Assembly: GCF_017876795.1 (NCBI RefSeq)
Contig: NZ_JAGIOR010000001.1
Coordinates: forward strand, 3,436,501 to 3,500,500
Length of the DNA: 64,000 nucleotides
DNA from: Rhizobium leguminosarum
GTDB lineage: Bacteria > Pseudomonadota > Alphaproteobacteria > Rhizobiales > Rhizobiaceae
Direction: 5' to 3'
Under the pieces are notes generated by a model. The model had not been told where the DNA came from. It saw only the letters and a list, made by a program, of their open reading frames with translations, and did no database searches. The position numbers were made by a program, and so were the translations under genes. The first letter of the stretch is position 1; each line of letters opens with the position of its first letter. Below are positions 40,259-45,722 of this stretch, in pieces.

Positions 40259-42598
40259 TCAGAATTGGTTGTTGATGCCAAACTTGAAGTTCTGCGTCTT
40301 GTCGAAGTCTTCCTTGAGAACCGGGATCGCGTAATCCAGGCGCAATGAACCGAAGGGAGACTGCCAGACGACACCGACACCGACAGAAGCGCGCAGCGAG
40401 GCGTCTTCGCCGTCAATGCCGTCGCCCCTCAGGTCAACGTCGTTGCCGAACAGCGTGCCGGCGTCGGCAAAAACCGCACCGCGCAGGTTGAAGTCACGCG
40501 GGAAGCCCGGCATCGGGAAGGTCGCTTCGGCCGATGCGGTGAAATACGTCGTGCCGCCCAGCGGATCGTCGTTGGTGCCGGAAACGCGCGGGCCGATGCC
40601 CTTGTTTTCAAAACCACGAATATCGCCGTTGGTCAGGGTGAACTGATCGAAGACATTCAGGTGGTCCCCAAAGCCGACGACATAACCCGCCGAAGCAGAA
40701 ACCGAGCCGATGATATCGGCATCGTCAGCGAGCAGACGGTAATAACGGGCCTTGCCGTAGATCTTGTAGAATTGCGAGTCGCCGCCGAGGCCGGCAAGTT
40801 CCTGCGTCGCCGTCGCATAGATGCCTTCGCGTGGCAGGACCGTATCGTCAAGCGTGTTGTAGGTCAGCGTCTGGGAGACGGAAGAACGTGTCCACGGGCT
40901 GTCCTCGACAAGGTGCTGATACGGTGCTGACAGGTCGGAAAGATCGTTGTTATCAGCGTCATACTTCATCTGTTTGTAGTTATAGCGGAAAGTCGTCGCC
41001 AGGTCCTCGGTGATCGGCGCGGTGACGCGCAGGACGACGCTGGTTTCCTCGTAGTCGTAGTTGTCGTTGCTCGACGTTTCGCTGTGGTTGACGTCGAAGC
41101 CTGCAGCCAGACGATAGCCGAGGAAATAGGGTTCGGTGAAGCTGAGGCCGTAGGCGCGTGAACCTTCCTGACCGCCGCCGGCCGAGATGCGGATGTACTG
41201 ACCGCGGCCAAGGAAGTTCTTTTCCTCGATGGATGCTTCAAGCAGCAGACCATCGCCGCCTGCGGCATAACCCGCGCCGACACCGAACGAACCCGTGGAC
41301 TGATCCTGCACGTCGACGACCACCACGACGCGATCCGGCGAGCTGCCCGGCTGGGTGGAGATATTGACGGAAGAGAAGTAACCGAGCGCTTCGAGGCGGC
41401 GCTTGGCCTTGGTGATCATCTGCTGGTTGAAGGCGTCGCCTTCGCTCATGTCGAATTCGCGGCGGATCACGTAATCGCGCGTGCGGCTGTTGCCACGGAT
41501 TTCGATGCGCTCGACATAGGCGCGCTCGCCCTGGTCGACCAGATATTCGACACCGATCGTGTTGTTGTTAAGGTCGCGGTTACCGCGCGGCGTGACGCGC
41601 GCAAAAGGATAACCGGCAGACGCGACCTGATCGGAGATCGCTTCGATCGACTTCTGCACTTCCTTGGCGTTGTAGACTTGACCTTCGTGGGTGCGCACGA
41701 GCGGCTGCAATTGCTCGGAACCGACGCCTTCGACGGTCGACTGGACGGTCACCGGTCCGAAGTCGTAACGCTGGCCTTCCTCGATATTGAAGGTGAGCGT
41801 GTATTTGTTGGTCGCATCGTCAAACGTCGCATCGGAAGAGACGATGCGCATGTCGGCGTAGCCGCGATTGTAATAGAACTGGCGCAGCGCTTCCTCGTCG
41901 GCATGGAGCTTGTCTTCGTTATAGACATCCTTGCGGGTCAGGAACGACAGGAAGTTCGACCGCTTGGTAGCGATGACGGCAGCCAGGCGGCCGGCGCTGT
42001 AGGCATTGTTGCCGACGAAGTTGATCGAATCGATCTTTGTGCGGTCGCCCTCGTTGATGACGAAGGCAAGGTTGACTCGGCCTTCGCCCAGCGGCACCAC
42101 CTGCGTGGTGACTTCGATCTCGCTGCGGCCGGTGGCGGCGTAGGCTTCCTTGATCGCCTGGATGTCGGACTGGATCTGGGTATCGCTGTAGGGGCCGGCG
42201 GCATGGGTCTGGACGATGGTCGCGAGCTTGTCGTCCTTGATCTTGCGATTGCCGTTGAAGACGACCTGATTGACGAGCTGGGCTTCCTGGACGTTGACGA
42301 CAAGCGTGCTTCCGGAGACCGAAATCTTCACGTCGGAGAAGTAGCCAGTGCCGTAGAGTTGCTTGACCGAGTCATCGATATCGGTGTTCGAAAAACTCTT
42401 TCCGGGAGCGATGGTGAGGTTCGACCGGACGGCTTCCGCGCCAACGCGGCTTGCGCCGCGCACATCAATGCGCTGGATAACCGCGGCCTCAGCGGCCGTA
42501 GCAGAAACGAACGTCAATGCACCTGCGCCCGAAGCAACAACACTAGCAGACAGCGCAACCGCCGATACTGCGTTCAAAAACTTTGAACCAGCCTTCAT
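40259..42598 (-). CDS. bamA: Outer membrane protein assembly factor BamA
   Basis: A 779-aa Omp85 protein. A signal peptide covers about residues 1-39 (cleavage near AEAAV); five POTRA domains follow ([19 protein letters not shown] starts the first); the C-terminal 400 residues are the beta-barrel ending in NNQF with the terminal Phe needed for assembly. It is essential in Gram-negative bacteria. It lies 203 bp downstream of the IS-interrupted rseP on the same strand, so it must have its own promoter or rely on read-through. Confidence 0.95.
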
Positions 42599-43130
42599 TT
42601 CACCTATTACCTTTTTTTCCCTCGTCCCCGGCTTCGAGAGAACCCGATTCCGGTCACGTGTGTCGTTTTACCCGCTTTTGACATACAAGCAAGGGAGGTC
42701 GTTAATTTCTGTTTACTTCATTTCGAAGCGTGACCCATTCGCCACTACAGCCTTGAAACATCGTAAATAAATAGTAATTCCTCTGCCTTGCGCGTTTACC
42801 CTTAGCTCAGGCCAATGTCGTTCCAGGTCGTGAAAACCATCAATGTTAATATCATCGCCAAGCCAATGCGAAATGCGATTTCCTGAGCCTTGGCGCCCAG
42901 CGGTTTTCCTCTCACCGCTTCCACCGCATAGAACATCAGGTGGCCGCCATCAAGTACCGGAACCGGCATCAGGTTAAGCAATCCTATCGAAACCGAAAGC
43001 ATGGCGGCAAGCTGCAACACTGCCCCTATGCCAAGCTTCGCCATCTGGCCCGAAGCCTGCGCCACGCGGATCGGCCCGCCCAGTTGATCGGCCCGCATCG
43101 TTCCGCGGAAAATATTGCCGATATATTTGA

Positions 43131-43151
43131 GAGGCTGCCCCAAAAAGATTT
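43131..43151. repeat. Left terminal inverted repeat of the IS
   Basis: Starts GAGGCTGCCCCAAAAAG at 43131, directly after the target duplicate TGA (43128-43130). It pairs with the right end at 44041-44061 at 15 of 21 positions, with the block AAAAG and terminal TTT conserved. Confidence 0.85.
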
Positions 43152-43209
43152 GAGTGATTTCAGCCAGTTGTGATTCCTTCGGATTTGCGAAGATTCGATG
43201 GAGTGCACA

Positions 43210-44041
43210 ATGGCCTAGACTGAAACCACCCGACAGCAATATGTCCGTCGGACGAGCCGATATGCAAGCGATGTTACCGATCGCGAATGGGAATTTATTG
43301 CGCCGTTCATGCCCGCGCCACGGCGTCTGGGCCGGCCACGCAAGACCGATCTGCGCGAGGTTTTAAACGCCCTTCTCTATATCGCTTCGACAGGCTGCCA
43401 GTGGCGGATGCTGCCGAAGGACTTTCCGCCCTGTTCAACGGTGCAGCGGTACTTCTATGAATGGCGGGCAATGGGTCTTGGCCACGGATCAACCACCACC
43501 TCGTCATGGAGGCACGGGAGCTGGATGGGAAAGAAGCTTCACCGACGGCTGGCGCCATCGACAGCCAAAGCGTCAAGACGACGAAAGCGGTGGTATTCGG
43601 GGCTTTGACGCTGGCAAGAAGATCAAAGGACGCAAGCGTCATATCATTGTCGATACGCTCGGGCTGATGGTCAGCCTCATGGTGCACAGCGCTGATATCC
43701 AGGACCGCGACGGGGCTCCCGATCTTCTGAAGTCCATCCGCAACCGATGGCCGTGGCTCCTTCATGTCTTCGCCGATGGCGGCTATGCGGGCGACAAGCT
43801 GAAAAAGCGGCTGCAGAAAATAGGAAAATGGACACTCGAAATTATCAAGCGTACCGACAAGGCCAAGGGTTTCGAAATCCTGCCGCGCCGCTGGGTCGTC
43901 GAGAGGACGTTCGCCTGGCTGGGACGATGCAGAAGATTGGCCAAGGACTTCGAGACATCCATCGCTTCAGCAGAAGCCTGGATAACCATCGCTCACATCC
44001 GAATGCTCACCAGACGGCTGGCAAGATACGGATATCGTTGA
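43210..44041 (+). pseudogene. IS5-family transposase, broken by an amber codon and two frameshifts
   Basis: Three successive frames make one DDE transposase of about 275 residues. Frame one, after ATG GCC TAG at 43210, reads [20 protein letters not shown] to YFYEWRAMG. Near 43478 a missing base moves it to [17 protein letters not shown] with the first Asp in IDSQSVKTT. Near 43583 a second missing base moves it to [18 protein letters not shown], then FADGGYAG (second Asp) and WVVERTFAWLGRC (Glu). The shifts are not at slippery A-runs, so programmed frameshifting is unlikely. The stop overlaps the right terminal repeat. Confidence 0.85.
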
Positions 44042-44061
44042 AACCTTTTCGAGTCCGACTC
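44041..44061. repeat. Right terminal inverted repeat of the IS
   Basis: Reads AAACCTTTTCGAGTCCGACT plus a final C; its reverse complement starts GAGTCGGACTCGAAAAGG, matching the left end at 15 of 21 positions. It is followed directly by the second target copy TGA at 44062-44064. Confidence 0.85.
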
Positions 44062-44891
44062 TGAAGGTGCCGGTGACGATGTCCCGGGTCTCGATCACAC
44101 TCTCACGCAGCGCCTGGACCGGCGTATAGGTCTGCAGGCGGAAATTACCGACCTCCTTGTTGGTGACGATGCCGATCTGGCCGAGCTCGATCTTGTTGCC
44201 GAACTGGTCGGTCTGGTCGACGCGTTGCGGCACCATCGGCAAGTCGAGCTTCTGGCCGCCGCGTTCGATGGTGACGACGATCGTCTGGCTCGGGCGGATA
44301 GCGACATAGCGGCGCACGTCGTCGAAAGTCTCGACCTTGCCGCCGTCGATGGCGACCAAGAGATCGCCTGGAAGGATGCCGGCGGCAGCCGCCACGCCAT
44401 CCGGTTTGACCTCGGCAACGACGGGATCGGCGACCGAGCGGCCGTAGACCGAGAAAAGAATGGTGAAGATAGCGATCGCCAGCAGGAAATTGGCGATCGG
44501 GCCGGCGGCAACCGTCGCTGCACGTTTCCACAACTTTGCTCCGGCAAAGGAGCGCGCCCTATCCTCCTCTGACATGGCGGCGATCTTGTCGGTGTCGGGC
44601 TTGCTCGAGGCGTCCTCGTCGCCGAAGAAACGGACGTAACCGCCAAGCGGGATCACCGAGATCTTCCAGCGCGTTCCATGACCGTCGGTGAAGCCGAATA
44701 TTTCCGGACCGAAACCGACGGAGAAGGCAATGATGCGGATACCGCTCCAGCGCCCGACGAGGTAATGGCCCATCTCGTGCACGAAGACGAGCAGCGAGAG
44801 CACGAGGATGAAGGTGACGATATTCCCCATCAGGAATGCGTATATATCGGCCATCACTTCTATCAGTTCCTTCCGTCAGGCTGCGGCGTCA

Positions 44892-45722
44892 TCAAAGGCC
44901 GAACAATGCCGCGCCGAGCGACGTCATCGCAGTCCCCTTTATCAGGGAAAATATTCCAGCAAGCAAGAACGCTGAAAAACAGGCAAAAATCAGTCCGTCT
45001 ACACGGTCCATGACGCCGCCATGACCCGGAATGAGACGGCTTGAATCCTTGACGCCGAATTTTCGCTTGATGAAAGATTCGAACAGATCTCCCGACTGGC
45101 TGCAAACCGAGAGAACGAATGCTGCGACGGCGGCGATGATTTCAGCGCCCGGAAGGAGAAAATGGACGAGAACCACACCGGCTGCGACCGCCGAAACGGC
45201 GCCGCCGATCGCGCCTGACCATGTTTTTCCCGGCGAGATCGAAGGGGCAAGCTTCGGTCCGCCAAGCGCCCTGCCGACGAAATAAGCAAGGATGTCGGTT
45301 GCCCAGACGACGGCAAAGACGAAGAGCATGGCGTAAAGGCCAGGCCGGTCATCGCTTCTGATGGCGGCGAGCGCCAGGCCGGTGGCACCGGCATAAAACA
45401 GGCCCACCGGCAGCCAGCGGCTGGTGCCGTGCAGGATGATCAGCGCTATGCCGACAGCGGTGACGCCGGCCAGCATGCCGGCGGCGAATTCGAAATTGCC
45501 GACAAGCACGAGGAAGGCGATCGCCGCCTGGCCAATCCAGCCGACTGTATTGGCGACCCAATCACGCGCGATGCCGGTTATTGTCGACCATTCATAATAG
45601 ATCAGTAGGCCGATCACGGCCGCCAGAATGCGGAAGGCAAACCCGCCATACCAGGTGGCGGCAAGAACGATGGCCGCAAGAATCAGTCCTGAAACGATGC
45701 GGAGCTTCAATTCTTGCTGCAT
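44892..45722 (-). CDS. cdsA: Phosphatidate cytidylyltransferase
   Basis: A 276-aa inner-membrane enzyme with about eight helices that makes CDP-diacylglycerol for phospholipid synthesis. The family signature is at the C-terminal side: KRKFGVKDSSRLIPGHGGVM followed by DRVDG. SPGKTWSGAIGG is the other conserved loop. It begins at the TGATG junction with uppS (1-base overlap) and ends 37 bp before rseP, so the IS in rseP lies downstream of it in the same transcript. Confidence 0.94.
   Translation of the reverse strand: MQQELKLRIVSGLILAAIVLAATWYGGFAFRILAAVIGLLIYYEWSTITGIARDWVANTVGWIGQAAIAFLVLVGNFEFAAGMLAGVTAVGIALIILHGTSRWLPVGLFYAGATGLALAAIRSDDRPGLYAMLFVFAVVWATDILAYFVGRALGGPKLAPSISPGKTWSGAIGGAVSAVAAGVVLVHFLLPGAEIIAAVAAFVLSVCSQSGDLFESFIKRKFGVKDSSRLIPGHGGVMDRVDGLIFACFSAFLLAGIFSLIKGTAMTSLGAALFGL

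Follow-up and report, generated by a model that had tools for sequence, protein, structure and literature searches.

An ISRm4-1-like IS5 element splits the site-2 protease gene rseP in a Rhizobium genome: a candidate natural null allele

A bacterium whose gene for the site-2 protease RseP is cut in two by an insertion sequence (IS) raises the question of what is left of the enzyme and how the cell would do without it. E. coli requires RseP for RseA/sigma-E signalling, and both RseA and the DUF4880-type FecR are substrates of the E. coli protease. The locus lies in a stretch of 64,000 nucleotides (the window), which belongs to a 5.09-Mb contig in a genome of 7.58 Mb on 9 contigs and has its closest named relatives in Rhizobium. 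On the minus strand, the genes are arranged in the order frr, uppS, cdsA, rseP, bamA, lpxD, fabZ, and lpxA, of which cdsA and bamA were assigned by Pfam and frr, uppS, lpxD, fabZ, and lpxA by eye from their translations. Upstream of rseP, cdsA is an open frame of 276 amino acids (44892..45722, minus strand; PF01148); bamA, an open frame of 779 amino acids with Omp85 and POTRA matches, begins 203 bp downstream of rseP (40259..42598, minus strand). The explanation that accounts best for the findings, and in which we place good confidence, is that an active ISRm4-like IS5 element has recently created a null allele of rseP, which is tolerated by the cell.

The rseP gene runs on the minus strand from a GTG at 44857, or alternatively an ATG at 44854, to a stop at 42802. 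Its 5' part (44065..44857, minus strand) is native coding sequence as far as the target duplication and contains residues 1-264 including the HEMGH motif, which lies near the N terminus, and the PDZ domain; the 3' part (42802..43127, minus strand) encodes the C-terminal residues with the LDGG motif. The two are separated by an element of 931 bp (43131..44061) that is bordered by TGA on either side (44062..44064 toward the N half and 43128..43130 toward the C half), as is expected of a target-site duplication. While LDGG is kept, it is found on a separate frame past the IS and not on the same chain as HEMGH. In profile searches, the open reading frame of the N half (43967-44857) matched positions 2-139 of PF02163 as well as PDZ_6 and TIGR00054, and that of the C half (42802-43239), whose TTG start falls within the IS, matched positions 123-221 of PF02163 and 311-416 of TIGR00054. 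On the E. coli RseP structure 7w6x, the second alignment of the N half extends to residue 304 and that of the C half begins at residue 342, which places the break between the PDZ domain and the LDG-bearing helix.

The interruption of rseP by a 931-bp element, first proposed in a sequence-only reading of this DNA, is thus confirmed, and so is its claim that exact removal of the element plus one TGA restores the frame. What is obtained is a single frame of 373 codons plus stop, reading ...RDIVTGTFKYIGNIFRG..., with the same length as in L063, L064, and L065, the three relatives that share the frame in the comparison; in the alignment, the DNA at the insertion site without the element equals that of three named relatives. 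The reconstructed gene is 97.8% identical at the DNA level to that of Rhizobium sp. CCGE 510, and its N half is 98% identical over query residues 1-266. Compared with CCGE 510, there are 19 synonymous base changes (dS 0.0745) and 6 nonsynonymous ones (dN 0.0066), with no further damage to the frame, from which it follows that decay has not yet begun; the divergence between the two genes may largely predate the insertion.

The inserted element belongs to the IS5 family and is of the ISRm4-1 type (43131..44061, transposase on the plus strand; NF033580, transpos_IS5_3). Over the whole query, its DNA is about 90% identical to Sinorhizobium (S. meliloti) elements annotated as ISRm4-1, and it is 96.7% identical to a plasmid-borne element of Rhizobium sp. 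C104. The termini, starting with GAG and ending with CTC, are imperfect inverted repeats that match at 15 of 21 positions. The transposase is left as a remnant on the plus strand (43309..44041; PF13340, PF01609), split into two frames that overlap (43309-43608 and 43457-44041). The two frames give PF01609/PF13340 and NF033580 matches, as is typical of a DDE transposase of the IS5 type, with the NF033580 cut-off passed by 43457-44041 only. Relative to sibling copies, the transposase frame is disrupted by 1-bp deletions near 43477 and 43582, that is, near positions 347 and 452 of the element, and the copy in rseP carries no intact transposase frame. The earlier description as a complete IS with intact ends therefore applies to the ends, which are complete, and has to be given up for the transposase.

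A search of the genome for this IS returned at least 41 matches (40 of 85 candidates scored), and at least 16 near-full copies with an identity of ≥97% are present. All 16 near-full copies included in the alignment, from which the partial copy L019 was omitted, have the GAG...CTC ends. Flanking TNA triplets are identical on both sides of 14 of them, the exceptions being L006 (TGA/TCA) and L017 (TAA/TCA), and this regularity argues that the TGA duplication at rseP is not due to chance. Thirteen of the 16 copies reach the full length of 933 bp and contain a long transposase frame, and twelve form one group in which no more than 4 positions vary. The rseP copy sits in the other group of four copies (L003-L006), where it shows not a single difference across 931 bp from L004 (C1:1549178); both deletions are common to these two copies, and the other 14 near-full copies have neither. 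Since an identical twin with the same deletions exists elsewhere on the chromosome, the deletions probably preceded the last move, for which the transposase would have been provided by sibling copies, and the insertion looks recent. The same pattern would result if one copy had been converted by the other.

Further copies of the IS are located within apparent coding frames, namely next to pieces of an MFS protein (L010), of a LysR substrate-binding domain (L018), and of a ferritin-like protein (L005). At L011 (G000:C1:4730377-4734306), a copy is flanked by HAD-like and UbiA prenyltransferase pieces in compatible frames and probably interrupts one fused gene. Ten of the 26 IS-flanking pieces were searched, and four of these ten gave no match. 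Two related IS5 lineages have multiplied in this genome, one comprising the 16 near-full copies at ≥97%, the other 17 copies of almost equal length at 76%, plus a further one at 77%; the 17 copies all have one score, which suggests that they are identical or nearly so.

From these data, the course of events may be envisaged as follows. An ISRm4-like IS5 element would have inserted at a TNA target in rseP, the copy being moved by transposase from its siblings. Translation of the 5' part would then enter the element and stop after about 30 foreign codons (43967..44061, minus strand), the predicted chain ending in VTGTFRVGLEKVSTISVSCQPSGEHSDVSDGYPGFC before the stop. Its product would be a membrane stub that retains HEMGH and the PDZ domain and lacks the LDG helix. 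As this helix supplies a zinc ligand in RseP, the stub would be incapable of proteolysis; judged from the sequence, the RseP product is most likely lost. The GTG of rseP itself has a strong ribosome-binding energy (-9.3, top 0.7% of background). Within the element, two terminator-like sites are found on the minus strand, compared with a mean of 1.8 in shuffled sequence. The bamA gene downstream of the insertion must be expressed, yet no sigma-70-like site is seen between the IS and bamA.

If the allele is null, its distribution in the genus becomes relevant. A full-length RseP match in a single frame is present in 144 of 148 genus genomes, the genome sample holding one genome per species, and the genome described here is the only case among the 148 in which the gene was seen to be split by an IS. 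The other exceptions are G003, G079, and G083. In G003, an assembly of about 1,320 contigs, rseP is distributed over two contigs, the N piece being cut off within the PDZ region where its contig ends; the IS was not found there, in a search run without positive control. In a sample of 61 genomes, 58 have an uninterrupted RseP, the rest being this genome, G003, and G042; the last, from another family of the same order, gave neither an M50 nor a BamA match and hence says nothing on the loss of RseP. All 80 relatives that were fetched with the N half, the best of 132 and hence a biased sample, have a single frame of more than 360 amino acids with HExGH and LDGG. A truncated RseP was also looked for in other strains: among the best 120 of 7998 matches, none covers more than 90% of the 296-amino-acid query, so that the IS-derived tail is absent from those 120 (scoring was limited to 8000 candidates, strains are concealed within clusters, and the matches listed do not include the protein of the window itself). 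The prevalence of full-length RseP in 144 of 148 genomes implies that selection maintains the gene in natural populations, and by this comparison its loss may be costly.

Two genus members deserve mention in their own right. The rseP frame of G079 (L159, G079:C1:1191800-1195500, about 1330-1420) is broken past HEMGH and ahead of the PDZ region, at about residue 55. G083 (L160, G083:C1:1986500-1990200, 630-2297) has an RseP of 555 amino acids with several PDZ repeats, whose C-terminal end diverges from the family after LDGG, as if frameshifted. These frame breaks may be sequencing errors, and the two genomes were not counted as recurrent loss of rseP in the genus. Many members of the genus have a long version of RseP, with open frames of about 563 amino acids, and others a short one of about 380 amino acids.

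The near-universal presence of an intact single-frame rseP, both in the genus and in the biased set of fetched relatives, together with the recent look of the insertion and the many near-identical copies of the IS family, is also what would be seen if the insertion were real but had come about while the sequenced clone was being isolated or cultured, or were carried by a minor part of the population, the natural lineage being intact. This is a serious competitor, to which we assign somewhat less than an even chance; it overlaps with the favored explanation in mechanism and differs from it in the place of origin. That the genome represents a wild Rhizobium lineage devoid of any site-2 protease, or one whose RseP functions as two separately made, IS-created chains, is a tentative proposition that we consider rather doubtful.

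The favored explanation, a recent null allele tolerated by the cell, calls for an account of how RseP can be spared. A paralogue had been suggested as one way out, and this suggestion found no support: no second M50 (PF02163) or M50B (PF13398) match was found elsewhere in the 7.58-Mb genome, which is rated 100% complete, in searches where the M50 profile matched in 14 of 14 control genomes and the M50B profile in 6 of 14. RseA_N (PF03872) has no match in the genome, E. coli alone being positive among the 14 controls. Likewise, the DUF4880 domain of FecR (PF16220), present in 11 of 61 genomes searched, has no match in this one, where two matches to the FecR domain PF04773 are both without DUF4880. 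The DUF4880-type FecR is missing in 50 of the 61 genomes, whereas 58 have an uninterrupted RseP; consequently, RseP must do other work in these bacteria, and the absence of FecR by itself does not account for the tolerance of RseP loss. The rirA gene is intact and encodes a full-length RirA (NF008886, 289.9 bits versus a cut-off of 193). One IS copy is situated near another Rrf2 gene (C1:4977079), which was judged by eye not to be RirA.

Laboratory work on other bacteria is more informative on the point of tolerance. According to the portions of PMC8822346 drawn on here, rseP was associated with 3 of the 65 transposon mutants that suppressed a rirA deletion in Sinorhizobium fredii, an in-frame double mutant of rirA and rseP was constructed, and the rseP insertions were selected in nodules; these mutations were studied in the rirA-deletion background and act via FecR/FecI. 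In Rhodobacter sphaeroides, the extract of PMC3818230 describes deletion of the rseP homologue RSP_2710, giving a strain that grows and has a raised sensitivity to singlet oxygen. For Caulobacter, the table row of a review (PMC10202637) gives PodJ as the protein acted on by the S2P MmpA and lists no sigma factor in that row, and an excerpt of PMC3471834 has rseP among the listed pseudogenes of Serratia symbiotica SAp, a symbiont of aphids. A further published passage hints that RseP has a function near plants. A natural IS insertion in a rhizobial rseP was not found reported in the open-licence PMC literature. The gene is not named in the main text of the R. leguminosarum transposon-sequencing paper PMC5118466, and no mentions of it were counted in the transposon-sequencing papers PMC5929573 (S. 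meliloti) and PMC11211677 (Sinorhizobium). Tolerance in the present strain would follow from RseP being non-essential in Rhizobiaceae, and the phenotype to be expected, going by the parts of PMC3818230 and PMC8822346 cited above, would be a weaker activation of some ECF sigma responses with no growth block.

The conclusion that suppressors are needed, which had been drawn from the essentiality of the gene in E. coli, is weakened by the lack of RseA_N and by the published rseP mutants of S. fredii and R. sphaeroides as far as these are described in the extracts. Suppressors would not be required by what is known in the family; they may nevertheless be present, since the S. fredii mutants were seen in a rirA-deletion strain and rirA is intact here. 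Of the ways out that had been considered, a different role in this organism, in the sense of being non-essential, is the part that fits. A selected loss, by which shutting down an anti-sigma cascade would have benefited the cell as it does in the S. fredii rirA-deletion suppressors, has its precedent in the nodule-selected rseP insertions reported in the cited part of PMC8822346, but with rirA intact and no DUF4880-type FecR found the S. fredii route is missing, and we regard this as quite unlikely. For that route, the FecR of S. fredii is presumably of the DUF4880 type. The idea of a natural counterpart of the rirA suppressors was discarded on account of the full-length RirA (NF008886, 289.9 bits).

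Copies of an IS are classic points of misjoining in assemblies, and one could have been joined into rseP by error; a misjoin would, however, not yield, on both sides of the element within one continuous rseP, a 3-bp TNA duplication of the sort seen at 14 of the 16 copies, and an error of this kind is very improbable. The least probable reading is that the two halves are both produced and come together in the membrane as a working two-piece protease, which would be in keeping with two open frames that retain their motifs and a break outside both catalytic motifs, past the PDZ domain and ahead of the LDG helix. Against it, no sigma-70-like site is found in 42590-44100 (in a scan covering this promoter type alone), and, going by the topology of RseP, the first helix of a lone C half would have to enter the membrane with the N tail translocated. 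Possible C-half starts (TTG 43239, TTG 43143, ATG 43098, and ATG 43044) are of ordinary ribosome-binding energy, 33-72% of background positions being as strong, save for GTG 43065, which is better (6%) but lies within native sequence; this test is weak in that the predicted starts of cdsA (25%) and bamA (16%) are also unremarkable.

Summarizing, the split rseP is best regarded as a commonplace knock-out by an IS, and the gene, though conserved, is probably dispensable. Judged from the assembly, the insertion is real, and it is a mild rather than a great surprise, since related bacteria are known to live without rseP. As a candidate for a natural rseP-null strain in Rhizobium, it adds to the laboratory evidence that Rhizobiaceae can lose RseP, and it cautions against transferring essentiality from E. 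coli to other bacterial classes. The strain would allow one to ask which envelope or stress response of Rhizobium needs RseP, most of the relatives searched having RseP but no DUF4880-type FecR. If the lineage should indeed have no site-2 protease, or a two-chain RseP, it would offer a natural test bed for the role of RseP in alphaproteobacteria.

Comparison with known systems puts the case into perspective. The gene belongs to the RseP/MmpA site-2 proteases (M50, TIGR00054), as both halves fall into the family and removal of the IS restores a full-length frame like that of the relatives; it differs from other members in that an IS splits it and HExxH and LDG are borne on separate chains. The element resembles the ISRm4-1-like IS5 elements of Sinorhizobium and Rhizobium in its DNA, with about 90% identity, and in the TNA duplications of 14 of 16 genome copies, and it is set apart, together with its twin, by the two 1-bp deletions in the transposase. 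The rseP mutants of S. fredii, as described in the cited portions of PMC8822346, are comparable in that a member of the Rhizobiaceae lost RseP and the cells were alive; those mutants were laboratory-made in a strain with rirA deleted and work through FecR/FecI, unlike the present strain with its intact rirA and no DUF4880-type FecR found. The RSP_2710 deletion of R. sphaeroides belongs to another order, was engineered, and has singlet-oxygen sensitivity as its phenotype, but in the extract of PMC3818230 it provides the same basic likeness, an alphaproteobacterium that is viable without its RseP homologue.
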